In this document: in pieces, positions 6,389 to 29,826 of the stretch | How the letters are laid out: the number at the start of each line of letters is the position of its first letter | Position numbering within the stretch: the stretch's first letter is position 1 | Source: Actinobacteria bacterium casp-actino5 | Lineage (GTDB): Bacteria > Actinomycetota > Acidimicrobiia > Acidimicrobiales > Ilumatobacteraceae | DNA: 64,000 nucleotides | NCBI GenBank assembly: GCA_001510385.1 | Contig: LFFE01000015.1 | Coordinates: forward strand, 1 to 64,000 | Direction: 5' to 3' | Notes under the pieces: generated by a model | Databases searched by the model: none | The model's input: the letters and a program-made list of their open reading frames with translations, nothing else | What the model was told of the DNA's origin: nothing | Made by a program: the position numbers and the translations under genes

Positions 6389-7357
6389 TCAGTGATGGTC
6401 AAATAACCGTCCAACGCGTTCGACGTAGTCGCGCTGGTCCTGCATTTCAAACACGGGAATCATGAATTCACTCAACATGTGAGTCTCAACTAGCTCGGTC
6501 AACTGTGCCCTGCACTCATCCTCAGTGCCATGAATGACGAATGGCAATACCCAGTCATCCGAAACGTATTGTGCCGCAACATGGAGACCATCTGCCATGG
6601 CATTCCGAATTCGCTCGACATCTTCATCTGTCATGCCAATCTGCTCGCGAATGTCAGTTGGAGAGTCGCACAGCCGATACGTCATATGTGGCCGAACGGC
6701 TTCAAGATCGCCGTCGGTCATCACAATAGATGTTGAGTACGACAGGTCGACCGAGTTGCCAGAAATGGCTGCCCCTTTGCGAACGGTGTCAACCGACGCC
6801 GAAAGAGTTGTCTCGTGGAGGAAATCGAGAATCACGCCATCGGCTAACTCACCCCCGAGAGTTAGCACGCGAGGTCCACGTCCAGCCAGCCATATCGGAA
6901 TATCTTGATATGGGCGAGCCATGGTGGCCTGGTGAAGACGCACCGTCTCACCCTCAAAATCAACTTGCTCCCCTGACCACAATCCCCTGCACACTCTGAT
7001 GAGTTCTCGCAGCGACACCACCGGGCGTGAGCGCGACAGGCCAAGTGCGTCGAGAGTGAGGGAGCCACCGGCTCCAAAGCCGGCTACAGCGCGCCCTCCA
7101 CTCAATTCTGCGAGGCTCGCATGGGCGACAGCGGTTTGTCCAGGGTGCCGGGTGAAGGGATTGGTGATTCCAGGGCCCACCAACATGTTCGAGGTCGCTA
7201 AGGCAACCGCACTTGAGACCACATACACATCATGAGTGGCGAGCCCCTCGTCATATAGGCGGCATGTGCTGTAGCCCGAGTTCTCAGCGACTTGAACAAG
7301 TTCGATCACCTCTTCAATGGGGCCATCAGGAATGATGTTTAGCGCTAACGAGACCAC
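6389..7357 (-). CDS. LLM-class (luciferase-like) F420-type oxidoreductase
   Basis: 322 residues with the TIM-barrel pattern of the luciferase-like monooxygenase superfamily: N-terminal LALNIIPDG strand, GPGITNPFTRHP, GFGAGG and the IPIWLAGRGPRVLTLGGE substrate-side loop. In actinobacteria these usually use coenzyme F420, but the cofactor (F420 or FMN) and substrate cannot be read here. It is the last gene of the minus-strand catabolic array. The start is GTG at 7357, with hexamer TAGCGT built on the yqeC stop codon six bases upstream. It converges on the phosphodiesterase gene with 23 bases between stops and no terminator. Confidence 0.82.
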   Translation of the reverse strand: MVSLALNIIPDGPIEEVIELVQVAENSGYSTCRLYDEGLATHDVYVVSSAVALATSNMLVGPGITNPFTRHPGQTAVAHASLAELSGGRAVAGFGAGGSLTLDALGLSRSRPVVSLRELIRVCRGLWSGEQVDFEGETVRLHQATMARPYQDIPIWLAGRGPRVLTLGGELADGVILDFLHETTLSASVDTVRKGAAISGNSVDLSYSTSIVMTDGDLEAVRPHMTYRLCDSPTDIREQIGMTDEDVERIRNAMADGLHVAAQYVSDDWVLPFVIHGTEDECRAQLTELVETHMLSEFMIPVFEMQDQRDYVERVGRLFDHH

Positions 7358-7363
7358 ACCGAA

Positions 7364-7369
7364 ACGCTA
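7364..7369 (-). promoter_or_regulatory. Leaderless -10 hexamer TAGCGT overlapping the yqeC stop codon
   Basis: On the minus strand TAGCGT is followed by six bases and the GTG of the LLM gene at 7357. The first three bases of the hexamer are the TAG stop of yqeC. The distance fits transcription beginning on the GTG. Confidence 0.55.
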
Positions 7370-8098
7370 CTTAACCTGTTCGAATTCAATCAATACGACT
7401 TCGTGGCTAGGGGTGAGGGCGTCTACCAATTCTTCAACCAAGTGAAATGTGGTCTGGTCTTCCTCTTGCAACGGTACTTTGGTGATGACGACTACTTTTC
7501 GGGCGTCTGCCGCACACCCCTTGAACGAACCATGCGGTGACGAAAGAACCGTTGCAGCTCGAGCCGGCGTGAGGCGTTCGTAGGGGCTGCAGCCAGCGAC
7601 TGCTGCGACTCTCAACGGACGATGGCATTGATCAGCAATGACTCGGCCGAGTGCGTCGGCTCCGATGACTGAGAGAACAGTCGTAGTCTGAACGGGAAGC
7701 ACCGGCTCGAAGTTCGCAGGGGCTTTGAATGGCCGATGTCGAGCACCATCGGCCTCAACGAGAACGAAATCGCAGAGAGAGTCGTCGCTAAACCATTCGT
7801 CGCAGACAGATGGAGGCACGCCGATGGACTTGTGTCCTTTGACTCCAGAGCGAACGAACACCGGTGAACTTCCGTTCCACGACGCAAGGGGTTGCTCAAA
7901 CGGTGCTTCGATCACGTCAAGATTTCCCGTTTGGTGCTCCCCCATCTTGGTTGTTGTCGTCACGATCGTGCGCCTGTTCATCGTCTGCGCGAGCTGAAAC
8001 AACAGGGTTGATTTGCCTCCTCCTCCGACGAGCGCAAGAAGTTCCCGCCGATCAAGATTGAGGGCAGTAGCCAGTCTCCCGCTCGGGATGGGGATCAT
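7367..8098 (-). CDS. yqeC: Selenium-dependent hydroxylase accessory protein YqeC
   Basis: 243 residues with an N-terminal P-loop GGGGKST (25-31), a TTTTKMG segment near 47 and LVEADGARHRPFKAP near 113. These fit the YqeC family of NTP-binding proteins. Comparative genomics by others associates this family, with YqeB, with selenium-dependent molybdenum hydroxylases; the biochemical step is unresolved to my knowledge. The ATG at 8098 overlaps the yqeB stop by four bases. Next to XdhD-like and XdhC-like genes, it supports a Se-dependent molybdenum enzyme, although no selenium donor genes lie in the window. Confidence 0.85.
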   Translation of the reverse strand: MIPIPSGRLATALNLDRRELLALVGGGGKSTLLFQLAQTMNRRTIVTTTTKMGEHQTGNLDVIEAPFEQPLASWNGSSPVFVRSGVKGHKSIGVPPSVCDEWFSDDSLCDFVLVEADGARHRPFKAPANFEPVLPVQTTTVLSVIGADALGRVIADQCHRPLRVAAVAGCSPYERLTPARAATVLSSPHGSFKGCAADARKVVVITKVPLQEEDQTTFHLVEELVDALTPSHEVVLIEFEQVK

Positions 8099-8913
8099 GA
8101 CCTGGTGCTCAGCCGGTGCAACGCTTCAACGACTCCCCCACCAACTGCGAGCGCTTTATCAGAAATCTGAACGCACGCCTCTGGGTCGTGTCGGGGGTCA
8201 ATATCGGCAATCTTCAGCCCTACAGAGACCTGCGAACCGGGAGCGATAAGTCCTCGCACCATTCCAGTAAATGGCGCATGGACATGCATTGATGTCTCCC
8301 CGGCGACTTCGCCAAGCACCGTTCCCTCTTTGACAAAGTCACCTATTTCTGACGACCACGTTATGCAACCACGCAAGGGTGCCCGTATGACTCTCTCTGC
8401 AGATTTCCCTTCGATTTCGCCGGGGCTCCCAGTATTGGGCTCAGCCATGCCTGAAAACAGGGCTCGTCCAAGGCGATGACCTCGCATCGTCTCTATGACG
8501 GCATGGCAGTGCGTTCCAACTGAAAACCCTGGACCGAGTGCAATCACGATTTCAGCGTCGTTCATCGATGAATCGAGAGGCTGTTTTGCAAGTCGGCAGT
8601 CAATGATGCTGCTCATTGGCTGTGACATCGGCACATCACCAATCGTTGGTGCGACGACAACCGGAATTTCGCCGAGGTTCCAACACGTGCGAACCGATTG
8701 TTCATCATCGCATCGCCGAGCAGCGAGACCCTCGATATCGATATGACCTGATGTGACCGCTGAAGAAACCGCGACCGTGCGACGAATGGTGAGCGGATGA
8801 GGAAGCTCAGCTACGAGCACTCGGAATCCGGCGTGGTGGAGCCGCCACACCACGCCAGTTGCGATATCTCCACCGCCTCTAACAAGGACGATCTCATCTG
8901 GTGCTGGTTGCAC
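8095..8913 (-). CDS. yqeB: Selenium-dependent molybdenum hydroxylase maturation protein YqeB (EF2563 family)
   Basis: 272 residues from the GTG at 8913, chosen because GAGG lies six bases before it and the product then begins just ahead of LVRGGGDIATGV, as in the family. A longer TTG start at 8943 has no ribosome-binding site. The N-terminal half has a Rossmann-like glycine motif; the middle has ALGPGFSVGTHCHAVIE and PNTG; the C-terminal half resembles a lipoyl or biotinyl-like barrel (FVKEGTVLGEVAG). The family is used as a genomic marker of selenium-dependent molybdenum hydroxylases. It overlaps the XdhC-like gene by 20 bases. Confidence 0.85.
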   Translation of the reverse strand: MQPAPDEIVLVRGGGDIATGVVWRLHHAGFRVLVAELPHPLTIRRTVAVSSAVTSGHIDIEGLAARRCDDEQSVRTCWNLGEIPVVVAPTIGDVPMSQPMSSIIDCRLAKQPLDSSMNDAEIVIALGPGFSVGTHCHAVIETMRGHRLGRALFSGMAEPNTGSPGEIEGKSAERVIRAPLRGCITWSSEIGDFVKEGTVLGEVAGETSMHVHAPFTGMVRGLIAPGSQVSVGLKIADIDPRHDPEACVQISDKALAVGGGVVEALHRLSTRS

Positions 8914-9664
8914 GAACGACCTCAGCCATGATGCTGATCGCAATCTGCTCAGGAGTTTCGGCGCCGATTTCTAGACCGATCGGCGTGGAAACTCTCGCGA
9001 TCTCATTTTCATTGCATCCTGCATTGAGCAGAAGTTCTTTTGTTGTCGACCATCTGCGAGCACTGCCCATTAGGCCGATGTAAGCCGCAGGTTGCTTCAC
9101 GACGGCGGGGATGAGTTCAACATCAAGAGGAACGTTCCGGGTGACCATCACGATGGCTGATCGCGCGTCGAGGGGAATGTCGACAAGGGCCTGAGTCAGC
9201 TCTCCACTGTAGGAATGAACAGCGTCATCGAATACCTCGAGCTGCTCGGGTCGGTCGTCCCAGATATGAACGTCCCATCCGCTCCATTGCGCAAGCTCGC
9301 AGACGGCACGTCCAACATGACCTGCTCCGATGATGAGAAGTGATGCGGTATTCATATATGGCTCAACGTAGACGTCCATCTCGCCTCCGCACACACCAGG
9401 ATCTCCAGTGGAGGGGTCGACGAGCCGATATGACAGCAAGCGAGGTTGGCCATCAGACATTGCATCAAGTGCAACATCAACCACTCTCGATTCCATTTCG
9501 CCCCCGCCAACGGTTCCCGTCCGGCTTCCATCGTCGCGAATGAGCATTGCTGCACCTATCCGGCGAGGAACCGATCGGTCAGTGCGGACAACTGTCGCTA
9601 TTGCTGCTTTGCCGCCGGCTGAAGCGGCGTTGAGCGCCAGTCGAATCAGGTCTAACGACCCCAT
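8894..9664 (-). CDS. xdhC: XdhC/CoxI family molybdenum-cofactor insertion chaperone
   Basis: 256 residues. The N-terminal XdhC/CoxI domain has the signature SVPRRIGAAM near residue 31 and GTVGGGEME near 50, then PGVCGGEMDVYVEP. The C-terminal Rossmann domain has IIGAGHVGRAV near 113, YIGLMGSARR and PIGLEIGAETPEQIAISI. XdhC proteins bind sulfurated molybdenum cofactor and deliver it to xanthine dehydrogenase-type apoenzymes; this one has the usual two-domain form. It sits between yqeB and the SsnA-like gene, overlapping the latter by 13 bases. The likely client is the XdhD-like subunit, or both hydroxylases of the window. Confidence 0.88.
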   Translation of the reverse strand: MGSLDLIRLALNAASAGGKAAIATVVRTDRSVPRRIGAAMLIRDDGSRTGTVGGGEMESRVVDVALDAMSDGQPRLLSYRLVDPSTGDPGVCGGEMDVYVEPYMNTASLLIIGAGHVGRAVCELAQWSGWDVHIWDDRPEQLEVFDDAVHSYSGELTQALVDIPLDARSAIVMVTRNVPLDVELIPAVVKQPAAYIGLMGSARRWSTTKELLLNAGCNENEIARVSTPIGLEIGAETPEQIAISIMAEVVRATSTR

Positions 9665-10956
9665 AGCCGACCCGCTTCCTCATTCACCCGGGCACGTGCT
9701 CGCTCAACATCAATTCCGAGAACTTCGCCATTTCGCACGCGCCACTGTCCGTCAACCATGACATCGCGAACATGGTGACCACTTCTCCACAGCACAAGTT
9801 GGTCAGCGATAGTGGAAGCATCAATCGGTGTGGGCAAGTCAAGGTTGACAACTTGAAGATCGGCAATCCAGCCAGGCTCAAGGCGACCCAGATTTTTTAT
9901 CCCTAGTGCTGCAGCTCCACCTTCGGTCGCCATGTGCAGAACCTGGTGTGCCGGCGTTGTCGATGGATCAAGCCGCCGTGCCTTCTGCAGCCAGAATGCG
10001 CCGCGCATGACCTCGTACATGTCATTGACATACCCATCTGACCCGAGACCAACTGTGACATCCCTGTCGAGGAGGTCAGCGATTGGCGCAATTCCTCCAC
10101 CCACCTCGCAGTTCGATAGTGGCATGTGGCTGACTCGAGTCCCACTCGTTGAGATGACCTCAAGCTCATCATCAGTCATCTGCACACACTGACTTGCGAG
10201 AAACGATGAACTCGCTATTCCGATATCTCTGTAGAAGGCCATCGTGTCAGCACCCAGGTTCTCTCGGGCCCAGTTTCCCTCGTGTATTCCCTCGTTGCAA
10301 TGTGCGTGGAACCACGTGTTGCGAGCCAGCGCTTCATTCGCCGCTCGTTCAATAAATGACCGAGAGCATGTGAACACGGTGTGCCATGACATTGCTCCAG
10401 AGACCAACGAGTCGTGTTGGTGCTGATCGATGAAGTCAAGATTCTCGAGAAGCGAGAGTTCAGCGATTTCTGCTCCCGCGCGCTCGGTGGCCTCGAAGCT
10501 GAAAATTCCTCGAATGCCAGCGAGACGGGACTGTTCCGCTTCTGCTTCGAGTACCCCACTAAGTGCTCCAGGTGCCTCACATATGTCGAAGAAGGTGGTT
10601 GTTCCGGTCCGCAACATTTCGGCACTGACCCAAGCCGACGCTGCTGAGATCATCTGGCGGTCGAGCCTGTCCTCAACTTGGGGCCACCAGTAGTCATCGA
10701 GAAAGCTTGCGAATCCAGTTGGAGGCGATTCGATGACTATTCCGTGCGCGAGGGTTCCGTATAGATGCACATGTGAATTGACAAACCCTGGCAGCACTGC
10801 GCACCCCGCAGCCTCGACCACTTCATCATCAGGAAATTCGGCGATGAGTGCCGCCGAACTGCCAGTTGCGTGTACTAGGCCATCATGAATACGGATTGCT
10901 GCCGATCGCTCAACCTGTTCAGCAGAGATCAACAGCCAGTCGGGACAAATAATCAT
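9652..10956 (-). CDS. SsnA-like amidohydrolase with an altered active site
   Basis: 434 residues, AtzA/SsnA-type amidohydrolase. Metal motif HVH at 62 and 64, WFHAHCNEG with H219 and E222, and GSDG with D307. The FEATER and DMYEVMRGAF segments resemble E. coli SsnA, which as I recall lies beside xdhD and ygfM; this gene likewise follows the XdhD-like gene with an ATGA overlap. Oddity: the strand-6 histidine, seen as LAHAVW in the paralogue at 14621-15994, is here ASQCVQ, giving Gln256. This could mean a changed reaction or loss of deaminase activity. Substrate unknown; a purine-derived compound is inferred from context. Confidence 0.82.
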   Translation of the reverse strand: MIICPDWLLISAEQVERSAAIRIHDGLVHATGSSAALIAEFPDDEVVEAAGCAVLPGFVNSHVHLYGTLAHGIVIESPPTGFASFLDDYWWPQVEDRLDRQMISAASAWVSAEMLRTGTTTFFDICEAPGALSGVLEAEAEQSRLAGIRGIFSFEATERAGAEIAELSLLENLDFIDQHQHDSLVSGAMSWHTVFTCSRSFIERAANEALARNTWFHAHCNEGIHEGNWARENLGADTMAFYRDIGIASSSFLASQCVQMTDDELEVISTSGTRVSHMPLSNCEVGGGIAPIADLLDRDVTVGLGSDGYVNDMYEVMRGAFWLQKARRLDPSTTPAHQVLHMATEGGAAALGIKNLGRLEPGWIADLQVVNLDLPTPIDASTIADQLVLWRSGHHVRDVMVDGQWRVRNGEVLGIDVERARARVNEEAGRLWGR

Positions 10957-13907
10957 TGCTGTGACTGGTTAACGGCTGAATTCATTGCCCGCCACACCCG
11001 CTCTGGTGTGAATGGAAGCTCGTTAATTGAGACTCCGACAGCGTTCTGAATAGCGTGGCGCAGGGCGGGTGCGACTCCGTCCTTGGGAATTTCCGCAACG
11101 GCCTTGGCGCCAAATGGTCCACTGTCTTCCATCGTCTGAACGAGGTAGACAGCTGTCTCGGGCATTTCATCGGCTCGATAGATGTGGTACGGGCCGAAGG
11201 AGTCATTGAGCATTTTGCCATTCTCATCAAAGGCGTATTCTTCGCAATGCGCGTATCCCAACGCTTGCAACATTCCGCCTTCGACCTGGCCGGACGCAGT
11301 GACAGGGTTAATGGCAACACCGCAATCGACCGCCATTGCCATCTTCATAATGGTGACCTGGCCAGTATCGACATCGACTTCAATCTCGATCACTTGTGCG
11401 GCGAAGGGTGGAGGGCACTCAGGAGACACGTACGAGGCGGTGCCCATTATTTGCTCCTGCTCCTGGGTGTGAAGTGAGTCGAGGGCAATGTCCTCCATTG
11501 AAACTGAGCGGCCGTCGGGAGCGTACGCGCGACGATCCCGTAACTCAATCGAACAAGGTTGTTCAACCCCGAGCAGCATCGCTGCGCGCTCTTTAATCCG
11601 TTCACGCGCCACTTCGGCAGCTCGGAGTGCAGCGGTGCCGGAGATATACGTGGTCGATGACGCGTAAGCCCCGGTGTCGAAAGGCGTCATGTCGGTGTCG
11701 CTTGAGTACACCTTGATGTCGTCAAGGTGTACTCCAAGAACCTCAGCCGCAATTTGGCCGAGAACCGTGTCGGCACCGGTACCGAGATCGGTGGCGCCAA
11801 CAAGCATATTGAACGAGCCATCATCATTCAGTTTGATTGAGCAGCCGCCCATATCGAGGAAAGGAATTGCAGTTCCATGCATGCAGTACGCAAACCCAAG
11901 ACCTCGCCGAATATTCGGTCGATCGGCTGGCTGTCGCCACTCGGGATCGTCACGGCGGTGCCAGCCAATCTCACGAAGTGCTTGAGCGACGCACTCCTCT
12001 AGGCCTGTTGACAGCACACGTGGGTACTCGTCAAGTTCTTCGTCGCTTGCGGCACGTTCACCGAGATGCGGAGCGATATTAAGTTCATCGCCAAGTCGCA
12101 ACCAGTTTTTGCGCTTGAACTCAATCGAGTCGTATCCAAGTTGTGCCGCGATGTCGTCCATATGGGCTTCGAGCGCAAATTCTGCTTGAGGTGCTCCATA
12201 ACCTCGGTATGCGCCCGGAACCGGAATGTTCGTGTAGACAACGTCGCAGCGGAAGCGTTTGTTTGGGGCGTTGTATTGGGTGAGTCCACGCAATCCGGCA
12301 ACTGTCTGCACGGTGTAGCCGTGGGTGCCGTAAGGGCCCGTATTTCCAATGATGTAAAGATCTTGAGAGACGAGTTTGCCGTCGCTGTCGACCACAGTGG
12401 TGAAGGTGAGTGTCTGCGGGTGGCGAGTTCGACTGCCGATGAACTCCTCTGACCGATCGAGTTCTAGCCGGACCGGGCGACGTGTCGCTTGAGCGAGATG
12501 TCCAACAATGTCCTCGATCAACATCTCTTGTTTGGCGCCAAATCCCCCGCCGATACGGGGCTTAACGACCCTGATGTCTTTGATATCGCGATCGAGGAGC
12601 GGTGCCACCATGCGGCGAGCATGAAATGGCACTTGGGTTGCTGTTCGAATGACGAGACGCTCGTCCTCGTCGAGCCATGCGATCGAAATATGGGGCTCAA
12701 TTGGGCACTGTTGAACCTGATGAACTCGGAAGGTTTGGGTGAATACGTGATGACCGTTGTCGTGCGCACGTTTGACTGCCTCATCTGGATCATTGCGGCG
12801 AGCGGTTATGTGATGGACGATATTGCGGTCACGGTTATGGATTTCGAGTGTGTCGGGCTCGTCATGAATGACAACTGCACCGTCTGCCATTGAGTCTCGT
12901 TCATCAAAAATGGCTGGAAGCAATTCATAGCTGACATCGATGAGCGAACAAGCATGCGCAGCGATTTCGGGAGTTTCCGCTGCAACCACCGCTACACGAT
13001 CTCCGACATGGCGAACTTTGTCGTCAAAACTCACTTGATCGTGAGGATGAGGATTTGGCCACGATTGCCCACCCGAGGCGTATTTGATACGTGGTGTGTT
13101 CTTATAGTGCAATACCTCGTGGACGCCGGGAAGTTGACGTGCTGCAGCGTCATCAATGTCAAGAATTCGCGCATGCGCGTGCGGGCTTCGAAGAACCTTT
13201 GCATAGAGCATGTTACGAAGCTCAATGTCATCGGTGAAGGCAGGATTTCCTTTTGCGAGTCGAACGGCGTCCACCTTGATCTCAGGCTTTCCAACAACTG
13301 CCATTTCTGGCACATCCTTCGAGGGAATAAGTCGCGGCACCGCGGCAGGGGCAGAAGGTGGGTTGTCGCTCGGGTCGTGCTCAACTGGTTCGCCCTGTTG
13401 AGTAAGAGAAGGCAGAATGACGGGAGTGAAAGGAGCAGTCTGTTCCCCTCGCAGAACTGCTGCCGCTCGATGTATCGCCTCAACCGGCTTTACGTAAGCC
13501 GTTTCTCGGTCGAGAATTCCTGACAGCATGTCGCGGATTTGTTCATCGGTAGGTGATGGATGCTCCTCGAGTAGCGCAAGAGCCCCAAGCACCATCGCAC
13601 CGGCCGAATATCCCGATTGGAACGCGCCCGTAGCAACAAACGCTGCCTGAATCGGGTGCAGCTCGGGGCTGGTGTTTAACGACTCAACCGTCGTGATGGT
13701 GTGCCCGTTGGCCTGGGCAGCAAGGATGACGTCGCTACTGGCGAGGCGACCGTCAAAGAGCACAGCAGCAGCCCCGGTCTCGCCGCTATCCGATCCGTAG
13801 TGGACACTAAACATTCCTTGAGAACGAAGGAATGTTCTCAGCGTGTCATGCGGTTCGATTTGCCCGGTGACAACGCGGCCATTGAGGGTGATGGTGATCG
13901 GAATCAT
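10953..13907 (-). CDS. XdhD-like molybdenum hydroxylase with degenerate iron-sulfur domain
   Basis: 984 residues. Residues 1-165 align in layout with the two-domain [2Fe-2S] module of xanthine dehydrogenases, but all eight cluster cysteine positions are other residues (for example SGETGAAAVL and QSGYSAGA). The molybdopterin-binding part follows (about 210-975): LRSPHAHARILDID, QQCPIEPH, GGGFGAKQ, GAYRGYGAPQ, DLGTGADT, and GPFGAKAVAEI with the presumed catalytic glutamate. Length and pattern match E. coli XdhD, which as I recall is also cysteine-free in this domain. It overlaps the FAD-subunit gene and the SsnA-like gene by four bases each. Substrate unknown; a purine or related heterocycle is inferred. 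Confidence 0.85.
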   Translation of the reverse strand: MIPITITLNGRVVTGQIEPHDTLRTFLRSQGMFSVHYGSDSGETGAAAVLFDGRLASSDVILAAQANGHTITTVESLNTSPELHPIQAAFVATGAFQSGYSAGAMVLGALALLEEHPSPTDEQIRDMLSGILDRETAYVKPVEAIHRAAAVLRGEQTAPFTPVILPSLTQQGEPVEHDPSDNPPSAPAAVPRLIPSKDVPEMAVVGKPEIKVDAVRLAKGNPAFTDDIELRNMLYAKVLRSPHAHARILDIDDAAARQLPGVHEVLHYKNTPRIKYASGGQSWPNPHPHDQVSFDDKVRHVGDRVAVVAAETPEIAAHACSLIDVSYELLPAIFDERDSMADGAVVIHDEPDTLEIHNRDRNIVHHITARRNDPDEAVKRAHDNGHHVFTQTFRVHQVQQCPIEPHISIAWLDEDERLVIRTATQVPFHARRMVAPLLDRDIKDIRVVKPRIGGGFGAKQEMLIEDIVGHLAQATRRPVRLELDRSEEFIGSRTRHPQTLTFTTVVDSDGKLVSQDLYIIGNTGPYGTHGYTVQTVAGLRGLTQYNAPNKRFRCDVVYTNIPVPGAYRGYGAPQAEFALEAHMDDIAAQLGYDSIEFKRKNWLRLGDELNIAPHLGERAASDEELDEYPRVLSTGLEECVAQALREIGWHRRDDPEWRQPADRPNIRRGLGFAYCMHGTAIPFLDMGGCSIKLNDDGSFNMLVGATDLGTGADTVLGQIAAEVLGVHLDDIKVYSSDTDMTPFDTGAYASSTTYISGTAALRAAEVARERIKERAAMLLGVEQPCSIELRDRRAYAPDGRSVSMEDIALDSLHTQEQEQIMGTASYVSPECPPPFAAQVIEIEVDVDTGQVTIMKMAMAVDCGVAINPVTASGQVEGGMLQALGYAHCEEYAFDENGKMLNDSFGPYHIYRADEMPETAVYLVQTMEDSGPFGAKAVAEIPKDGVAPALRHAIQNAVGVSINELPFTPERVWRAMNSAVNQSQQ

Positions 13908-14611
13908 GACAACGCTCCGAGCACTCGTTGGCTAAGTTTCACTGCCAAGTGGTGGCGGTATTCGCTACTTCCCCGAAAATCGCTGAACGGTATGAGTTGC
14001 TCCACCTCGTCTAGTGACCGAGCCAACTCAGGAACGGAAGAAACACCAGTAATGGCGAGGATGGGCCCGCTGCTAGAACGCCGACCAGCTACCGCCACGA
14101 TCGGAGTATCCATCGGAGTTCGACCGGTGTGTTCGAACGCCCAGTCTGTCGACGTGTGTAGTTCAACTGTTGTGATGAGCCCGCTTGGCGATCGCAGAAA
14201 CTCATCAAGAGGAGTCGATTTGCCATCAGCCGTCGTCACCGTTGCAGAGGAAGCGAGTAGTGCAGCCAACAACAGGCTTTCTTGACCCGCTGCTGCGACT
14301 GCTCCTCCAATAGTGCCGATCGTTCTCAGCGTTGACGGCAACTCCCTTCGTGCAGCCACACCAAGTAAGTCGTGAGGAAAGGTGTGCTCAATATCCGCCA
14401 CTCGAACCATCGCTCCAATGGAGGCGGAAGAGCCCTCGAACTGGATGTTGTTGAGGCCGAGGGATTGAAGATCAACTCCCACATATCCTGACCGGTGACG
14501 ATCAGCGTTGATCACTGTCCCACCAGCGAGTGGAATGTGTTGGGGCTGACTCAGCAGGGCTACTGCCTCGTCTAAGGTCTCAGGTCGATGGTATCCAGCA
14601 AGTAGCGGCAC
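13904..14611 (-). CDS. YgfM-like FAD-binding subunit of molybdenum hydroxylase
   Basis: 235 residues, shorter than the usual 280-300 of CoxM-type subunits but near E. coli YgfM. The N-terminal half has the FAD-binding signature AGGTVINA near residue 28, IGAMVRVAD near 66 and TIGGAVAAAGQESLLL near 99. The C-terminal CO-dehydrogenase flavoprotein domain is short. It starts with GTG at 14611, nine bases after the preceding stop, and overlaps the XdhD-like gene as ATGA, so the two subunits are probably made together. A TAATTT hexamer overlapping the upstream stop codon gives it a possible promoter of its own. Confidence 0.82.
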   Translation of the reverse strand: MPLLAGYHRPETLDEAVALLSQPQHIPLAGGTVINADRHRSGYVGVDLQSLGLNNIQFEGSSASIGAMVRVADIEHTFPHDLLGVAARRELPSTLRTIGTIGGAVAAAGQESLLLAALLASSATVTTADGKSTPLDEFLRSPSGLITTVELHTSTDWAFEHTGRTPMDTPIVAVAGRRSSSGPILAITGVSSVPELARSLDEVEQLIPFSDFRGSSEYRHHLAVKLSQRVLGALS

Positions 14612-14617
14612 AATTCC

Positions 14618-14623
14618 AAATTA
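14618..14623 (-). promoter_or_regulatory. Leaderless -10 hexamer TAATTT overlapping an amidohydrolase stop codon
   Basis: TAATTT on the minus strand, then six bases, then the GTG of the YgfM-like gene at 14611. The TAA of the upstream amidohydrolase forms the first half of the hexamer. Confidence 0.55.
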
Positions 14624-15994
14624 GCCGAGCCGAGACCGAATCCCTGCCCGCTGGAATAGCGATGCTGCTGCTGCCTTGGCTGATGCAATGACTTCCGAAG
14701 AATTTACTGCTCGATGAAAGCCATTTCTAATGACGGGCTCACCTTGAACAAAGACATCGCGGACCTGTTGCGGTGAGCAGTTAAAGACGAGCGCACTGGG
14801 TATCCGGTGAACTGGCGCAACGGCTGGGTGGTCGAGATTGACGATGACGAGGTCAGCGGCACGACCAACTTCTATCCGACCGAGTCGATCGGGCTCACCA
14901 AATGCTCGTGCTCCACCAGCGCATGCCATTTCGATTGCGTCTTCAGGTTGAAGAGCCATGGCGTTGAGATGGTGAACCTTCTGAAGGAGAACGGACATTT
15001 TCATTGCTTCGAAGAGGTCCTGTCGATTATTTGAGCCCGACCCGTCACTTGCAAGAGCAACCGTGATACCGAGTTCACGCATCTCAAGAATTCGAGCTAC
15101 GCCTGACGCCAGATACATATTTGAGACCGGGCAGTGCACCACGACCGAGTCGGCTTGCGCAATCGATTGCAACTCGTCGTCGTCGAGCCACACAGCGTGT
15201 GCGAGTTGAACGTCCGAAGCGAGGGAGCCAACACTTTCCAACCATGGGACATGCCGCAAACCTCTCTCAGAGATGCTCATCTCGACCTCCACAGCAGTTT
15301 CTGCGCAGTGAACGTGAGTACCGCGACCCCACGACCGAGCAGCCTCAATCGTTTCAACCATTGCTTCGTCGGAACAACCCCATGGGATAAGTGGACCAAG
15401 TTCGATCTTGATTCTGCCCTCGTGGCCATCCCAACGATCGAATGTTTGCTTTGCTCTACGAATCGCGGTTGCAGAATCCTCGACGAGCGGCTCATGGTAA
15501 TTGCGATCCGCCCAGCCGTGAGCAAGAAGAAGTCGTAATCCGAGTTCATCCGCAGCTCGGCACACCGCATCGTCAATGAGGTCGCCATCGATGCCGGGGT
15601 GGACATATTGGTGATCGATAACACTCGTACATCCGCTCATTAAGTTCTCGAGCAGACCAATGCGAGCCGCGTGATACGCGATGTCGGGAGTTATGTGTTC
15701 AGCCGCAGGCCAGATGCACTCTCGTAACCAATCGAGAAGTGGTCGGTCATCTGCAAGACCTCTAAAAAACGACTGGAAGAGATGTGTGTGCGCATTTGTC
15801 ATCCCCGGCATGACGGCGCAGCCAGCAGCTGAGACCACTTCGTCGACCGAAGTCTCCAATGCTGAAGGCGACTCGCCTCTACCGATGTCAGTAATGACAC
15901 CATTGGTGATCAAAATCCAACCCGGGTCGAGCACGTCGTGATCTTGGTTGACGGTGACAATTGCTCCACCATGAATAAGTCTCGTGTTACTCAT
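14621..15994 (-). CDS. AtzA/TrzF-type amidohydrolase (8-oxoguanine deaminase-like)
   Basis: 457 residues from the ATG at 15994, which overlaps the upstream LLM stop by eight bases. A longer in-frame start at 16039 would overlap far more and adds an atypical leader. Full metal site: NAHTHL near 73, HVHCAE near 242, LAHAVW near 280 and ASDGSG near 332. This set and the [15 protein letters not shown] segment resemble hydrolases that deaminate 8-oxoguanine or other purine and triazine rings. Substrate is inferred only from family and from neighbouring xanthine-dehydrogenase-like genes. It is followed after nine bases by the YgfM-like gene. Confidence 0.82.
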
Positions 15995-17015
15995 GTGGCG
16001 CCCAGTGAGCAAAGGCATCAATAACTGGCTTGATGTCATCCATCATTGGATACAAAATCGGACACGTCACTCCCGCGTCGATGTACTCGGCAACTTTCTC
16101 TTGGCACTCGCGGGTGGTTCCGACCGCCATGAGTGAACGAACTAAATCATCTGGGATGAGGTGTGCTGCTTTTCGGTAATCGGCTTCTGTTGCCGGCCAA
16201 CCAACAACCTCCTTCACTCTCTTCACAAGATCTGGGTCCGCTCCACTTGCCTCCATGATGTGAGGCTCGGTACCGAGGTAATACGCGACGAGCGACTTTC
16301 CGGTAAGTAATGCCTCTTGCGGGTCATCATCTGAAAGTGAGCACACGAGGAGCTCAGGGCGATCTACTTGTTCGATCGTTTTACCGGCGCGTTGAGCACC
16401 CGTTTCAACTCGTTTAACCGCTGAGCGGATGTAGTCAGTTGAGACGACATAGTTAAGAACAACGCCGTCACAGGTCTCCCCTGTGAGTTCAAGCATTTTT
16501 GGACCTGTTGCGCCGATGTAGATCGGAATGTTTCTCGGAGAGGCATCTCCATATGCGACATCAAGTCGTACACGATCAAGTTGAACGATCTCACCCTCGT
16601 AGGTGACTTCCTCCATAGTGAACAATGCACGCAGTGCCTCAACGTGCTCGCGCATCGCTCGTAGTGGAAGTCGACGATTCTCACCAACACGGCTCGCAAT
16701 TGGCTCCCACCATGCGCCAATGCCGCACATCACACGACTTTCACCTTCTACGAGACCACCCAGTTCCCACATGGTGCTCCAGGTTGCTGCGATGACTGCC
16801 GGGTTGCGGGTCCAAATGGGCAACACACCTGATCCGATTCGCAGGCGCTTTGTCTCGGTGAGCAGAGCACTCATCAAGACGACGCAGTCTCGTGCGAGGC
16901 GAGTGTCGGCCTGCCAGATTTCAGAGAACCCCTTCGACTCCGCATACTTCGCCATTTCAATTTCGTAGGCGATTGGGTGTTTGTCTTGGAGGTATAGGGC
17001 CATGCGTTGAGCCAT
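15987..17015 (-). CDS. LLM-class F420-type oxidoreductase (second copy type)
   Basis: 342 residues. Luciferase-like TIM barrel: [19 protein letters not shown] start, [42 protein letters not shown] and [18 protein letters not shown], as in methylenetetrahydromethanopterin reductase-like F420 enzymes. Only distantly similar to the other LLM gene at 6389-7357, so not a recent duplicate. Cofactor and substrate are not proven. Its ATG follows the CodA-like gene by ten bases and is preceded by a TAGTCT hexamer overlapping that gene's stop codon. It overlaps the downstream amidohydrolase by eight bases. Confidence 0.84.
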
Positions 17016-20045: not shown

Positions 20046-20074
20046 CCGTTTATTCCGTTTAGGGTTTGCAAACC
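20046..20074. promoter_or_regulatory. Candidate operator: CCGTTTA direct repeat and 12-bp palindrome
   Basis: CCGTTTA occurs twice in the same orientation (20046-20052 and 20055-20061, nine bases apart). It is followed by the perfect palindrome GGTTTGCAAACC (20063-20074). The position between or over the two candidate promoters suggests binding of a dimeric regulator that controls the importer. No regulator gene is adjacent. Confidence 0.45.
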
Positions 20075-20116
20075 GACTATGTTCGTAAACGTGATTCGAT
20101 TCCTAGGCGGCCAACA

Positions 20117-20890
20117 ATGACAGCGGCTGAAAGTTCCGTCCAGACAAGTGGAGTGGGGGCACCAGTCCTTTCGTTTGACCACACCCAAATGACGTTTCCT
20201 GACGGCACAGAAGCCGTACGTGATGTGAGTCTGGATATTTCTCCGGGAGAGTTCGTGACGATCGTTGGTCCATCTGGCTGCGGTAAGTCGACGTTGTTAA
20301 AGATTGCATCAGGTCTGTTAGACGCGACGGGCGGAGAGGTCGCTGTCGACAGGGACCGCTTGGGCTATGTGTTTCAGGATGCGACTCTGCTCCCTTGGCG
20401 AACGGTTCAGGGCAACGTTGAGTTGCTCGCTGAGTTGCATGACATTCCGAAGGCTGAACGTCGGCAGTTGGCTCGCGAGGCGATTGAAACCGTTGGACTT
20501 TCGGGCTTCGTGAATCACTACCCTCGTTCACTCTCAGGTGGCATGAAGATGAGAGCGTCGCTAGCTCGCACCCTTACGCTGAAGCCTCCGGTGTTTCTCT
20601 TTGACGAGCCGTTCGGTGCGGTTGATGAGATCACTCGAGAACATCTCAATGACGAGACGCAACGACTTTTCCAGTCAGAGGGTTTTGCAGGTCTCTTCAT
20701 CACCCACTCCATTGCGGAGGCGGTCTTCATGTCGACGAGGGTGATGGTCATGAGCGCCCGACCCGGACGCATTGTTGCTGAATTTGATGTGCCATTCGAC
20801 TACCCTCGCAAGCCAGACCTGCGGTTTGACCCCGAATTTGCTGCGCTGAGCGGCGAAATTTCTCGCGAGTTGAGAGGTTCCCACCAATGA
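20117..20890 (+). CDS. ABC transporter ATP-binding protein, NitT/TauT type
   Basis: 257 residues from the ATG at 20117, preceded by AGGCGG; an in-frame start at 20066 lies inside the control region and is less likely. Walker A GPSGCGKST near residue 52, Q-loop GYVFQDATLLPW, signature SLSGGMKMRASLAR, Walker B VFLFDEPFGAVD, and the switch histidine in THSIAEA. The PWRTVQGNV and EAVFMSTRV segments are typical of nitrate/taurine/sulfonate and hydroxymethylpyrimidine-type importers. The stop overlaps the permease ATG by four bases. Confidence 0.88.
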   Translation: MTAAESSVQTSGVGAPVLSFDHTQMTFPDGTEAVRDVSLDISPGEFVTIVGPSGCGKSTLLKIASGLLDATGGEVAVDRDRLGYVFQDATLLPWRTVQGNVELLAELHDIPKAERRQLAREAIETVGLSGFVNHYPRSLSGGMKMRASLARTLTLKPPVFLFDEPFGAVDEITREHLNDETQRLFQSEGFAGLFITHSIAEAVFMSTRVMVMSARPGRIVAEFDVPFDYPRKPDLRFDPEFAALSGEISRELRGSHQ

Positions 20891-21786
20891 GCATTACACA
20901 AGACAACGAGCAGCAGCAGATTTCAACCGTTGATGACGGTGCAGATACGGATTCTGGCGCGCCGGTCTTAGGCGGCAAGAAGCGACGTCGCACCGCTGCC
21001 GATATCGCTCGGCAGTTTCTGCCACCTCTCTTTTTGGGTGCACTCATCGTGGGGGCCTGGTACTACGTGTCATACGGGTTGCTCACTGAAGAGCGGCGGT
21101 TCTTGCTTCGTCCTCCGCATGAGATCCTTCAGGTGGGATTTTTAGATTGGGATCACTTCTCTGAAATCCTGCAAGCACTGTGGAGCTCGACTCGAGTCGC
21201 CCTTATCGGTCTTACGATCTCGATCACTATCGGATTCTTTCTCTCAACCATCATGAGCCAGACGAAGATCGTCGAGCGAGCAATCTTCCCTTACATGGTG
21301 ATGCTGCAGGCAATTCCAATCCTCGCCATCGTTCCTCTGATCGGATTTTGGTGGGGTTACGGAACGACCTCCCGTATTGCGGTGTGTGTCATCATTTCTC
21401 TATTCCCCATCATCGTGAACACCTTGTTCGGGCTGCAGTCTGCCGAACGTGGGCTCCATGATTTATTCACCTTGCACCATGCATCTCGTTTAACCCGATT
21501 ACGTAAGTTGATGTTCCCCGCTGCTCGTCCAGCAATCTTCGCCGGTCTCCGCATTTCGGCCGGACTCTCGGTGATTGGAGCAATCGTCGGTGACTACTTC
21601 TTCGGCCAAGGAGCAGTAGGAATCGGGCAACTTCTCAAGCGTTACTCGAGCCGACTTGAAGGAGAAGAGCTCCTCGCTGCTGTCATCATGTCCTCAGCGC
21701 TCGGTGTCGTCGTCTTCTTGTTCTTTGGTTGGCTGCAAAACGTTGCCATTGGAAAATGGCACGAATCATCAGGTGCAGATTCCTAA
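20887..21786 (+). CDS. ABC transporter permease, NitT/TauT type
   Basis: 299 residues. A polar N-terminus of about 40 residues precedes roughly six membrane helices. The cytoplasmic coupling loop (HHASRLTRLRKLMFPAARPAI, near residues 197-217) replaces the usual EAA-type motif. It belongs to the BPD_transp_1 superfamily and pairs with the upstream ATPase and the downstream lipoprotein. Confidence 0.87.
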   Translation: MSITQDNEQQQISTVDDGADTDSGAPVLGGKKRRRTAADIARQFLPPLFLGALIVGAWYYVSYGLLTEERRFLLRPPHEILQVGFLDWDHFSEILQALWSSTRVALIGLTISITIGFFLSTIMSQTKIVERAIFPYMVMLQAIPILAIVPLIGFWWGYGTTSRIAVCVIISLFPIIVNTLFGLQSAERGLHDLFTLHHASRLTRLRKLMFPAARPAIFAGLRISAGLSVIGAIVGDYFFGQGAVGIGQLLKRYSSRLEGEELLAAVIMSSALGVVVFLFFGWLQNVAIGKWHESSGADS

Positions 21787-21844
21787 CTTCCTAGTCCCTA
21801 CCAACACACCCACCCACAACCACAATCCAAGGGGGAGAACCTTG

Positions 21845-23029
21845 ATGATTACATCAACCCGAAAGAAATCCTTGAGAACACTGTTAGCTCTCGCTACCGC
21901 CGTGTCTCTCGTCGCCGCTTGCGGCAGCGACGACGACGATGGCGATGCAGCGGAAGATCCAGCGGCCGAAGAGGAATCAACTACCGCTACTCCCGTAGCG
22001 GAAGCCGGTGTCCTAACCGATATTTGTCCTGATCCGTTGGTGATTCAGACTGACTGGCATACAGAGTCTGAGCATGGAGCGTTGTACAACTTGCTTGGTG
22101 ATGATTACACCGTTGACAAGGGTCGCAGCGCGACGGTTGGCCCGATGACACTTGATGGCGTCGATCTTGGCATCGATTTTGAGATCCGTGAGGGCGGCCC
22201 GGCGATCGGGTTCTCCTCACCTTCATCAATTATCTATAGCGATGATTCAGTGCACTTGGCGTACGCCAATACAGATGCGCAGATTCTGACCTACGAAGAC
22301 ACACCAATGTTGTCAGTGGTTGCTCCGTTGGAGAAGAACCCACAGATGATCATGTGGGACCCAGCGACGTACCCAGATGCTGAAGATCTTGAAGATCTGA
22401 GAGATCTTGGCGTCACGATCAACATCTTCGCTGGTCAAACCTACGCAGACATTTTCGTTGCTCAAGGTGTGCTGACGGAAGATCAGATTGATCCTTCTTA
22501 CGATGCAACCCCTGCCCGCTTCATTGCAGAACAGGGTGCAATCGCTCAGCAGGGGTTCGCTTCTTCTGAGCCATACGCATATAAGAACACCTACGAAGAA
22601 TGGGGCAAGGACGTTGCCTTCACATTGTTGAACGACAACGGCTTCCCGATCTACAGCCAGACCATCGCTATCAAGCCTTCCATGAAGGATGAGATGGATG
22701 CCTGCTTGACCGAGATCGTTCCAATCTTCCAGCAATCAGTGGTGAGCTACCACGGAGACCCCGCCCGCACCAACGCAATGATCGTTGACATCAACGAGCA
22801 ATACGATGACGGATGGGTATACACCGCAGGTAACGCAGAGTTCGCTGCAGGAGCGATGGCCGAATTCGGCCTCGTCGGCAACGGCCCAGACGACATCGTC
22901 GGCAACATGGATACAGACCGCATCCAAGAAATGATCGACGCCGTCGCAGAGGCCGGCCTCAGTGAGACAAGCCTCACCCCAGCCGACCTCGTCACCAACG
23001 AGTACATCGACACCTCAATCGGCTTCTGA
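21845..23029 (+). CDS. ABC transporter substrate-binding lipoprotein (NMT1/THI5-like)
   Basis: 394 residues from the ATG at 21845 with GGGGGAG eight bases upstream. Lipoprotein signal: basic N-terminus (TRKKSLRTLL), hydrophobic stretch and lipobox VAAC near residue 24, followed by an acidic linker rich in D, E and A. The mature part, starting near ICPDPLVIQTDW, has the NMT1/THI5-like solute-binding layout. Ligands in the family include pyrimidines, riboflavin, nitrate and sulfonates. The link to the nearby nucleobase-type enzymes makes a nucleobase or related heterocycle plausible, but this is inference. Followed directly by a strong terminator. Confidence 0.85.
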   Translation: MITSTRKKSLRTLLALATAVSLVAACGSDDDDGDAAEDPAAEEESTTATPVAEAGVLTDICPDPLVIQTDWHTESEHGALYNLLGDDYTVDKGRSATVGPMTLDGVDLGIDFEIREGGPAIGFSSPSSIIYSDDSVHLAYANTDAQILTYEDTPMLSVVAPLEKNPQMIMWDPATYPDAEDLEDLRDLGVTINIFAGQTYADIFVAQGVLTEDQIDPSYDATPARFIAEQGAIAQQGFASSEPYAYKNTYEEWGKDVAFTLLNDNGFPIYSQTIAIKPSMKDEMDACLTEIVPIFQQSVVSYHGDPARTNAMIVDINEQYDDGWVYTAGNAEFAAGAMAEFGLVGNGPDDIVGNMDTDRIQEMIDAVAEAGLSETSLTPADLVTNEYIDTSIGF

Positions 23030-27019: not shown

Positions 27020-27025
27020 AGGTTA
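27020..27025 (-). promoter_or_regulatory. Leaderless -10 hexamer TAACCT overlapping the molybdenum-subunit stop codon
   Basis: TAACCT on the minus strand, seven bases, then ATG at 27012. The TAA at 27023-27025 is the stop codon of the preceding gene. Confidence 0.55.
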
Positions 27026-29341
27026 GTCGCGAAGGTTCGAATTCACCGCTTTTGCGATGTCGGAAGGTCGAATTGGCACTCTCGTGAGATGCGTATCGGC
27101 TCCCCCGCTGCGGTTCATGGCATTCTGGATTGCACTGATGATGGCCGGAGTCGAACTAATCGTTGGTGGCTCACCGACCCCTTTTGCTCCCATCGGAGCC
27201 TGTGGGTCGGGGATCTCGATCAATTGCGCTACGACCGGTGGCATATCGGCGATCGTTGGAATGAGGTAATCGGTGAACGACGGGTTCATGATCCGCCCGT
27301 CACGTTGAATGATCTCCTCCATGAGAGCGAGTCCTAATCCTTGCGCGATACCACCCTCGATCTGGCCGGTTACTGATAACGGATTAAGAGCTCTTCCGAC
27401 ATCTTGAACGGTTGCGATTTCAACAACTCTCACGAGACCGAGTTCGACGTCGACGTCCACAACCGCCCGATGGCCTACGAATGCAAAAGCGGTGTGACAG
27501 TCTCCTTGACCGTTTTCATCCAACGGGACCGTCGGTCGGTGTCTGAACTCAACCTCTTCATCAATTACGAGTCCCGACACGATCTGTAACATCGGCCAAC
27601 GCTGGCCGTTCGTCGTGTTCACCAATGTGTCGCCCTCAATGACAAGAGCGAACGCGTCACCACCTGTTGTCGCCGCGACATGTTCGAAAATGAGTTGTCG
27701 AACCTTGAGGCACGCTGCCTCGACGGCGCCTCCACTCATCCAGGTCTGGCGAGAGGCAGAGGTCGAGCCAGCTGAGCCGACGCCGGTATCTATGGGGTCC
27801 AGACGAACATCTTCAAGCCCGAGCGTAGAACGTGCAATCTGCGCCGCAATCGTGATGAAACCCTGCCCTACCTCGGCGGTGGCAAACTTGAGAGTAATCA
27901 CCCCGTCGTCGAGTCGGCATCGCGCTGTGCTGTAATCATCAAACGCTTCGGAGTACATCAAATTCTTGATTGCCAAGCCATAGCCAACCCCTCGGACGAC
28001 ATCGCTTGAGCGAGTGGTATTTCCCGCCCCACCCGGAAGCCCGTAAGGGTGACCGTTCGAATGCAGCGTCTCAGATGGTTCTGGGATTGCGGCTAGCCCT
28101 GCGATGATCTCACGAACAGGAGCAACGCTCTCAACAGTTTGACCAGTGATGAGCCGATCGCCTGTCGCCATTGCATTTCTTCGCCGAATTTCGAGCGGCT
28201 CTAGGTTGCACTTTTGAGCAAGGAGATCCATTTGTCGCTCATGAGCGAAACACGCTTGAACCACACCAAATCCGCGCATCGCCCCACATGGGAGATTGTT
28301 CGTGCGTACCGCAACTCCCCGAACGTAGGCGTTATCGCACTTGTACGGACCTTGAGTGTGGGTAACTGCGTTGACGAGAACGGCTGAGGATGTTGACGCA
28401 TATGCCCCGCCGTCGAAGATGAACTCGGCTTCTATTTTGACGATACGACCGTCCTGCGTGGCGTGATGCCTCATCCAAATTTCTGCAGGATGGCGATGAA
28501 CGTGACCTAAGAAGCTCTCACTCCGCGAGTAGTGCATCTTGACTGGTCGTCCCGTGGCAAGAGCCAACAGGCAAACATGAACCTGCAACGAGATGTCCTC
28601 TCGACCTCCAAATGCCCCGCCGACCCCTCCTAGAACCATCCGAATTGCGGTCTCTGGAAGGTCGAGACAGGCAGCGATCTGGGCGAGGTCTTCATGTAGC
28701 CATTGTGTAGCGACGTGACACTCAACTCCTGCGCCGTCGGCATCAGGGATGGCGAGTGCGGCTTCGAGCCCGAGAAACGCCTGATCCTGCATGCCGATGG
28801 TGTAGCGGTCCTCGACAATGACATCTCCGACAACTGAGAGGTCACCGCAGACCACATTCTGCTCACGAATGACGTTCCCATCAGGGTGGATTTCCATCGA
28901 CTCCGGATCAGCAGCAAACCGGGCGTCAGTAAGTGCAGGCAGTGTTTCGTACACGACATCAATCGCAGCAATTGCTCGCGCACAAATGTCCTCATCGTCC
29001 GCAACCACTGCCGCTATGGGTTCACCGATATACCGAACCACCTCGCCTGCAAATACGGGCTGATCTGAGGAGATCAAACCGTAGGTTGGTTTTCCTGGGA
29101 CGTCGTCCGCCGTGATGACGGTATGGACGCCTTGCATCGCAAGTGCTTTCGACGTATCAATACTGAGTATTCGAGCGTGTTGATGTGGTGATCGAAGGGT
29201 TTTCCCGATGAGCATGTTGTCAGCAGAAAGGTCTGACGAGAATAAATAGGAACCTTCTGCCTTCGAAACGCCGTCAGGCCGCAACGGTGATTGTCCAATA
29301 CCTCCGCGAACGACAGATTCACGAATTTCGAGATCACTCAC
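27023..29341 (-). CDS. Molybdenum-binding large subunit of a xanthine dehydrogenase-family enzyme
   Basis: 772 residues. Aldehyde oxidase/xanthine dehydrogenase a/b hammerhead (GKTLRSPHQHARILSID), then the molybdopterin domain with GGVGGAFGGRED, GAMRGFGVVQ, AEVGQGFITI and the terminal PMGAKGVGEPP carrying the catalytic glutamate. Length is normal for a separate large subunit. It overlaps the iron-sulfur subunit gene by four bases, giving the order FAD, Fe-S, Mo along the transcript. It is distinct from the XdhD-like enzyme at 10953-13907, which carries its own degenerate Fe-S domain. Substrate: purine inferred from the adjacent phosphoribosyltransferase; aldehyde, nicotinate or CO-type oxidation not excluded. 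Confidence 0.88.
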   Translation of the reverse strand: MSDLEIRESVVRGGIGQSPLRPDGVSKAEGSYLFSSDLSADNMLIGKTLRSPHQHARILSIDTSKALAMQGVHTVITADDVPGKPTYGLISSDQPVFAGEVVRYIGEPIAAVVADDEDICARAIAAIDVVYETLPALTDARFAADPESMEIHPDGNVIREQNVVCGDLSVVGDVIVEDRYTIGMQDQAFLGLEAALAIPDADGAGVECHVATQWLHEDLAQIAACLDLPETAIRMVLGGVGGAFGGREDISLQVHVCLLALATGRPVKMHYSRSESFLGHVHRHPAEIWMRHHATQDGRIVKIEAEFIFDGGAYASTSSAVLVNAVTHTQGPYKCDNAYVRGVAVRTNNLPCGAMRGFGVVQACFAHERQMDLLAQKCNLEPLEIRRRNAMATGDRLITGQTVESVAPVREIIAGLAAIPEPSETLHSNGHPYGLPGGAGNTTRSSDVVRGVGYGLAIKNLMYSEAFDDYSTARCRLDDGVITLKFATAEVGQGFITIAAQIARSTLGLEDVRLDPIDTGVGSAGSTSASRQTWMSGGAVEAACLKVRQLIFEHVAATTGGDAFALVIEGDTLVNTTNGQRWPMLQIVSGLVIDEEVEFRHRPTVPLDENGQGDCHTAFAFVGHRAVVDVDVELGLVRVVEIATVQDVGRALNPLSVTGQIEGGIAQGLGLALMEEIIQRDGRIMNPSFTDYLIPTIADMPPVVAQLIEIPDPQAPMGAKGVGEPPTISSTPAIISAIQNAMNRSGGADTHLTRVPIRPSDIAKAVNSNLRD

Positions 29342-29826
29342 AACTTGTTTCGCTTTCTCCCGTCGACAGCAACCTGAACAGCATCAAGTATTCGCCCGTA
29401 GCCCGTGCAGCGACATAAGTTTCCTGCGAGGGCTTCCCGGACGTCATCCACATCCGGATCGGGATTGCGGTCAAGCAGATTAGTTGCAGCCATGACGAGG
29501 CCTGGTGAACAGAAGCCACACTGGATCGCGCCACATTCAACGAAGGCTTGTTGCACGTCTGTTGCACCGCCAAGACCTTCGATGGTCACGATAGATGATT
29601 GGGTTACTGATGCTGCGAGCACTAAGCACGAGCACACGAGATTGCCGTCGAGAAGCACCGAGCAAGACCCGCACTCGCCCTCTTCGCATGCGCCTTTCGA
29701 ACCAGTCATTCCAATGTGATCGCGAAGCACAGAAAGAAGACTGGCCCCGAGAAAACTGTCCTTCACTTGATGTTTGGAGCCGTTTACCGTCAATTCGAAG
29801 TGTTTTTCGTCGCTGGTGTAGGTCAT
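29338..29826 (-). CDS. [2Fe-2S] small subunit of xanthine dehydrogenase-family enzyme
   Basis: 162 residues. All eight cluster cysteines are present: C47, C52, C55 and C67 for the plant-ferredoxin-like cluster, and C103, C106, C138 and C140 for the helical-domain cluster (QCGFC and CRCTGY). It transfers electrons from the molybdenum centre to FAD. It overlaps both neighbours by four bases. It is the only intact Fe-S subunit of this family in the window, and so a possible partner for the cysteine-free XdhD-like enzyme (inference). Confidence 0.93.
   Translation of the reverse strand: MTYTSDEKHFELTVNGSKHQVKDSFLGASLLSVLRDHIGMTGSKGACEEGECGSCSVLLDGNLVCSCLVLAASVTQSSIVTIEGLGGATDVQQAFVECGAIQCGFCSPGLVMAATNLLDRNPDPDVDDVREALAGNLCRCTGYGRILDAVQVAVDGRKRNKL

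Follow-up and report, generated by a model that had tools for sequence, protein, structure and literature searches.

Organization of the XdhD-like locus

Within the window, which here means the whole stretch of 64,000 nt that was analysed, the gene for an XdhD-like molybdenum hydroxylase (10953-13907) overlaps by 4 bp that of a YgfM-like FAD subunit (13904-14611), both being on the minus strand. The features of the locus are as follows.

6389-7357, minus: LLM/F420-type oxidoreductase 1 (LLM1), candidate yanthine reductase replacing YgfK; NCBIfam LLM/F420 models, all below cut-off; adjoins in relatives
7367-8098, minus: YqeC, selenium cofactor biosynthesis; TIGR03172, 163 bits (cut-off 73)
8095-8943, minus: YqeB, selenium-dependent Mo-cofactor maturation; TIGR03309, 309.5 bits (cut-off 220)
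8894-9664, minus: XdhC-family Mo-cofactor maturation factor; NCBIfam/Pfam-type profile matches
9652-10956, minus: SsnA-like aminohydrolase; PRK07203, 252 bits, and TIGR03314, 239 bits, both below cut-off; adjoins in relatives
10953-13907, minus: XdhD-like molybdenum hydroxylase, 984 aa; open reading frame with Pfam Ald_Xan_dh_C, MoCoBD_1, MoCoBD_2 and Fer2_2
10956-13301, minus: its hammerhead and Mo-cofactor domains, residues 203-984; Pfam, with Q281, E617 and E939 conserved
13452-13691, minus: its former Fer2_2 half, residues 73-152, four Cys sites now S, S, D, E; Fer2_2 match at 13470-13691 and alignment
13692-13907, minus: its former plant-type ferredoxin half (Fer2), residues 1-72, four Cys sites now S, T, A, D; alignment with intact subunits
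13904-14611, minus: YgfM-like FAD subunit, 235 aa, GTG start; Pfam FAD_binding_5, E 1.6e-15
14621-16039, minus: amidohydrolase (8-oxoguanine/5'-deoxyadenosine deaminase-like), kept upstream of YgfM in relatives
15987-17015, minus: LLM/F420-type oxidoreductase 2 (LLM2), 75-79% identity and equivalent place in L047, L049, L050 and L063
27023-30695, minus: second hydroxylase, with PucD-like Mo subunit (TIGR03196, 812 bits, cut-off 784), Fe-S subunit (29338-29826) and FAD subunit (29823-30695)

The order LLM2, amidohydrolase, YgfM, XdhD, SsnA-like, XdhC-like, YqeB, YqeC and LLM1 is conserved in relatives. SelD is encoded in the window genome together with YqeB and YqeC, giving it the gene set of a selenium-dependent molybdenum hydroxylase (SDMH); these three were proposed as the marker set of such enzymes (Haft and Self, PMC2276186). 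FbiC, for F420 synthesis, is also present. Among sampled Anaerolineae, YqeB scored above its cut-off in 24 of 24 genomes with an XdhD homolog, compared with 11 of 20 genomes without one.

All eight cluster cysteines are present in the Fe-S subunit at 29338-29826, and from its profile scores the trio at 27023-30695 is probably a xanthine dehydrogenase acting one step upstream of the XdhD-like enzyme. The window genome carries a second fused Fe-S/Mo enzyme of 860 aa on contig C7 (L014:8644-11226, genome G000), which has 8/8 cysteines and resembles selenium-dependent xanthine dehydrogenase. Beside the operon lies an ABC transporter (20066-23029; ATPase, permease and lipoprotein-type substrate-binding protein), a candidate substrate importer. 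A search of the window found no Rfam family.

Loss of the cluster cysteines

Alignment of the XdhD-like protein with intact Fe-S subunits shows S, T, A, D / S, S, D, E at the cluster positions (0/8 Cys), and residues 1-160 are entirely free of cysteine. This confirms the loss reported in the initial annotation, whose comparison motifs for the 29338-29826 subunit were also correct. The two [2Fe-2S] sites with eight cysteines that characterize the xanthine oxidase family are absent from the protein; Fer2_2 is still detectable at residues 73-146 (Pfam, E 3.4e-18), and the Mo-cofactor domain of the family is present with the catalytic residues Q281, F456 and E939 conserved. The best NCBIfam models were NF043082 and TIGR03313, both scoring below cut-off, and the match to the latter, which represents the E. 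coli-type XdhD, reached 628 bits against a curated cut-off of 1101.9.

Conservation and predicted fold of the cysteine-less domain

Of 199 related genomes searched, 25 had a homolog with an E value of 1e-100 or lower. The cluster cysteines are absent from every relative checked at the level of genus, family and order that was readable through the domain (L019-L040, 70-93% identity), and these share the nearly identical replacement motifs SVxYGSDSGETGAxAVL, QSGYSAGAM and LSGILDRETAYVKPVEA. The substitutes S, T, A, D, S, S, D, E are thereby conserved across the Acidimicrobiia checked, and, judging by the motifs that the relatives have in common, chance or sequencing error is excluded as the source of the loss. 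In pairs among L022, L023, L024 and L025 with unsaturated dS, the two halves of the domain gave dN/dS values of 0.02-0.17, somewhat higher than those of the Mo domain (0.01-0.02), yet clearly indicative of purifying selection. The AlphaFold model of the protein has a mean pLDDT of 90.1, residues 1-72 being mostly above 90, and VIA-align matched it to 1sij and 1dgj over 860-865 residues (Z 40.4, rmsd 2.2-2.3), from residue 1 to 977. Since this match spans the whole protein, the former Fe-S domain is predicted to keep both its fold and its place.

The cysteine-less domain is maintained and is not decaying, because the replacements are conserved, dN/dS is low, and the model retains fold and position. 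The same evidence supports the proposal made in the initial annotation that the domain is kept under selection and has apparently become structural. The loss of a relay that is normally essential could be taken to mean that the gene is decaying and its protein has little or no activity, but the frame is open in all relatives, dN/dS is well below 1 in both the cysteine-less and the Mo domain, Q281, F456 and E939 are kept, and the operon is conserved, so that we regard decay as extremely improbable. Another reading considered was that the conserved D, E and S replacements might build a metal site. Selenocysteine at in-frame TGA codons, seen in three relatives, was rejected, as all of these codons are at the C-terminal end, where the normal stop belongs.

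The FAD subunit

The presence of an FAD subunit gene next door to the XdhD-like gene, as first annotated, is well supported. The YgfM-like protein has the FAD_binding_5 fold of the family together with its AGG (29-31) and TIGG (100-103) motifs, and its model (pLDDT 90.4; Z 26.6 to the flavoprotein of CO dehydrogenase) predicts a normal flavoprotein-subunit fold. The loop after AGG, of low pLDDT, is about six residues shorter than that of the PucC-like subunit, and the score against TIGR03312 was 57 bits (cut-off 241.5). The electron chain of the window enzyme beyond the clusters is not being dismantled, as its FAD subunit keeps both motifs and fold.

Adjacency of FAD subunits at related loci was scored only inside the fetched flanks. 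Rows without an intact cluster site had an adjacent FAD subunit in 42 cases and none, despite room in the flank, in 24; the corresponding figures were 63 and 25 for rows with both clusters, 9 and 10 where only Fer2 was lost, and 0 and 3 where only Fer2_2 was lost. Negatives at L031, L040 and L056 were artefacts of overlapping open reading frames, and all three do have the subunit. In the ST...CE subclade (1/8 Cys), 0 of 14 loci had an adjacent FAD subunit, the fetched flank being only about 1.5 kb for most, and none was found in the fetched flanks of L197, L198, L200, L210, L211 and L213. FAD subunits that lack AGG and/or TIGG occur beside XdhD-like genes at L132, L164, L165, L055 and L059. 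With FAD subunits non-adjacent or lacking their motifs, the rest of the electron chain would seem to have been dismantled as well in parts of the clade.

Search for an Fe-S partner

In agreement with the initial annotation, no Fe-S partner is encoded beside the XdhD-like and YgfM-like genes. Four Fer2_2 domains are found in the window genome (90.8% complete), and each is accounted for: one in the XdhD-like protein itself, one in a C14 subunit beside its own FAD subunit, one in the PucE-type subunit of the 27023-30695 trio, and one fused in the 860 aa enzyme of C7. This leaves none spare, and the possibility that an unlinked gene of this genome supplies a cysteine-bearing Fe-S subunit dedicated to the complex was rejected. 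YgfK was not found in the window genome, the best match being a partial one of 186 bits (cut-off 835), and of 11 genomes that carry related loci, most of them from Chloroflexota, the genome of L056 alone had a match above the cut-off.

Electrons had been suggested to pass from Mo to FAD by way of the intact Fe-S subunit of the second hydroxylase or of an unlinked YgfK-type protein. E. coli XdhD, isolated together with a partner of about 30 kDa, putatively YgfM, converted uric acid to yanthine with NADH (Li et al. 2025, PMC12507026), while YgfK was a separate yanthine reductase rather than the Fe-S subunit of XdhD, acting with SsnA one step later. The YgfK suggestion is therefore not supported, and the direction would be reversed: since the characterised relative works as a reductase, electrons would go to Mo. 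Borrowing of the 29338-29826 subunit, or of the CO-dehydrogenase-type one, as a relay seems very unlikely to us. Both are encoded in the genome and belong to the right family, and relatives checked have 3-7 Fer2_2 domains each. However, the N-domain of the XdhD-like protein is predicted to fill the place of the Fe-S subunit, the 27023-30695 trio is complete and scores as a xanthine dehydrogenase, relative G014 (genome 89% complete) is without a free-standing PucE-type subunit, and E. coli XdhD was reported active with only its ~30 kDa partner (PMC12507026, accessible text).

Repeated independent losses

An XdhD homolog at E 1e-180 or better was found in 228 of 396 sampled Anaerolineae genomes. 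The loci sampled were 80 named from GTDB genomes and 90 more from Anaerolineae genomes, most of the genomes compared being MAGs, and the eight positions were scored in each Fe-S domain, whether fused or adjacent. Five states were found. All eight cysteines are present in some loci. In a second group the Fer2 site is lost and the second kept (DSDGCCCC and similar: L057, L058, L060, L167, L171, L172, L177, L182, L183, L185-L187, L190, L191, L201, L206, L212, L214, L216, L217). The opposite intermediate, with the first cluster kept and all four Fer2_2 cysteines replaced (CCCCSESE), occurs in L210, L211 and L213 (G330, G310, G286). One cysteine is left in the STADSSCE type and in the DSDGCESD of L197, L198 and L200, and none in the window clade, the DTDQSNDE type and the DADSSNSD of E. 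coli, Serratia and Atlantibacter. Apparent losses at L098 and L106 were a domain-boundary effect, and both are intact. In L167, L171, L172, L177, L182, L183, L185-L187 and L190, all of the Fer2-lost group, precisely the former cluster loop region holds an insert that bears a conserved TP...SYRL-like motif.

Trees were built from the Mo domain, omitting the columns of the trait itself, and changes were counted by minimum parsimony on quick tree searches. The fewest changes required were 7 (Fer2) and 6 (Fer2_2) on the 90-row tree (LG+G4), and 6 and 5, respectively, on the 46-row tree (mixture model). We read these as losses rather than gains, because the regain of four cysteines at once is implausible. 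The E. coli clade was placed among intact relatives from Spirochaetota and Elusimicrobiota, and near it also falls an Ozemobacteraceae sequence with an intact second cluster site, the first half being cut off. Common ancestry of all cysteine-less forms was rejected by trees and AU tests, both for a single origin of the window-type and E. coli-type losses (p-AU 1e-54) and for one of the window-type and DTDQ-type losses (p-AU 6e-5). The N-terminal cluster has been lost independently at least six times and the second at least five, with one-cluster intermediates of both kinds still living. The cysteine losses of E. coli XdhD and of the window clade are separate events, which is new.

Likely reaction and route of electrons

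We consider it likely that the protein is a selenium-dependent hydroxylase of the XdhD kind, probably reductive on an oxidised purine, with a clusterless scaffold domain and a relay that has been discarded repeatedly. From homology and gene context it is probably a selenium-dependent purine dehydroxylase converting urate to yanthine, and a coherent pathway would run from xanthine to urate (Puc trio), to yanthine (XdhD-YgfM-like), then through F420-dependent reduction (LLM) to ring opening (SsnA-like). The substrate may differ from that of E. coli, as XdhD-like, YgfM and SsnA all fall below the curated models. E606 of E. coli XdhD, which a modelling proposal in the accessible text of PMC12507026 has orienting the substrate and conferring urate-to-yanthine specificity, corresponds to E617 here; it is present in every cysteine-loss row, whereas E. 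coli XdhA and PucD have a gap at this point of the alignment.

On sequence and model, a scaffold role for the former Fe-S domain appears to be the best-supported statement on mechanism. The domain would no longer bind clusters and would keep the YgfM-like FAD subunit placed relative to the Mo domain as in xanthine dehydrogenase, and the relay would have become dispensable in the clade, to be discarded time and again. With the relay discarded, electrons would either cross slowly and directly from the FAD subunit to Mo, be delivered to the Mo pocket by an external reductant, or not be needed at all, if the chemistry is redox-neutral. As the window enzyme has kept its FAD subunit, we infer that slow transfer from FAD ranks first for it. 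Against this, with no clusters in between an electron would have to cross from FAD to Mo in one step, which by ordinary tunnelling estimates would be very slow.

Redox-neutral chemistry, in which Mo moves oxygen between purine positions or molecules (e.g., transhydroxylation or isomerisation of the xanthine/yanthine type), would need neither external electrons nor a relay, and the repeated cluster losses and missing adjacent FAD subunits would be its evolutionary consequence. We judge it unlikely. It is favored by the 14 ST...CE loci and the six further loci without an adjacent FAD subunit, by the five FAD subunits that have lost AGG or TIGG, and by the assay section of Li et al. (PMC12507026, accessible text), which lists controls without enzyme and without substrate, none without NADH, and has DTT in the storage buffer. 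On the other hand, the window enzyme retains an FAD subunit with intact motifs, and basal members with intact clusters suggest that the ancestral enzyme was a redox one. Moreover, an E. coli xdhA mutant left xanthine unconsumed (PMC12507026, accessible text), so that in this organism XdhD does not isomerise it by itself.

A separate reductant might instead feed the Mo pocket directly. It could be one of the F420-type (LLM) proteins encoded on either side of the operon or, in a limited group of Chloroflexota, a flavoprotein resembling dihydroorotate dehydrogenase (DHODH-like). This we hold to be quite unlikely. Two LLM genes flank the operon in the window and relatives, FbiC is in the window genome, and in L052, L155, L160 and L162 the gene immediately upstream looks DHODH-like on visual inspection of its sequence. 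However, the usual hydride acceptors of LLM enzymes are small substrates, the DHODH-like gene is missing from most loci of the clade, and the accessible text of Li et al. (PMC12507026) proposes the F420 enzyme for another step, yanthine reduction. The same text describes Chloroflexota clusters in which an F420-type gene, proposed as a yanthine reductase, replaces YgfK or UacX. At L162:9046-10116 (minus) and L160:302-1426 (plus) the DHODH-like gene stands beside one-cysteine XdhD-like genes, and could be a UacX-type partner or a reductase.

Comparison with known systems

The relay from Mo through two Fe-S clusters to FAD is treated as a defining feature of xanthine oxidase-type enzymes. That it was dropped at least five times in a widespread clade and in E. 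coli, with one-cluster forms still living, challenges this rule and offers a natural mutant series with which to study the supply of electrons to Mo when urate is reduced; this step belongs to purine metabolism in the gut and has a link to gout. We know of no activity for any member from Acidimicrobiia or Chloroflexota, or outside the E. coli type itself. In the open-access literature, coverage of which was incomplete, we found no published description of the cysteine loss. It goes unmentioned in the accessible parts of PMC12507026, the main text of which has neither 'cysteine' nor '2Fe-2S', and of a 2025 commentary (PMC12990295), which describes YgfM as the electron-transfer module and does not mention the missing wire from YgfM to Mo.

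The closest fold is that of Desulfovibrio aldehyde oxidoreductase (Mop, 1sij/1dgj), with its Fe-S domain fused ahead of the Mo domains. That enzyme has both [2Fe-2S] clusters, no FAD subunit and an aldehyde substrate. By sequence profile, the nearest solved Mo subunit is that of 4-hydroxybenzoyl-CoA reductase (1rm6), a dehydroxylating reductase of the xanthine oxidase family that has all its clusters and an extra 4Fe-4S in the FAD subunit. The selenium-dependent hydroxylases on pNG700 of Haloarcula marismortui (Haft and Self 2008, PMC2276186) share about 42% identity and a SelD/YqeB/YqeC neighborhood with the window enzyme, whereas their Fe-S part stands apart as a subunit of its own and has 7 or 8 of the eight cluster cysteines. 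The subunit annotated as (2Fe-2S) at L017:14977-15552, in the locus on which orphan SelD was originally defined, has 7/8, the third being Ser.

The cysteine-less state is already known in kind, as XdhD (YgfN) of E. coli K-12 also has 0/8 cluster cysteines, a fact that the initial annotation had missed. Like the window enzyme, it has fused former Fe-S and Mo domains, an FAD gene (YgfM) directly upstream, SsnA nearby, YqeB and YqeC in the locus, and the shared glutamate (E606/E617). The two differ in that they are only 38% identical, lost their cysteines independently, and are separated by the NCBIfam cut-offs, below which the window protein falls; and in place of the YgfK of E. coli, the window genome has F420-type genes.
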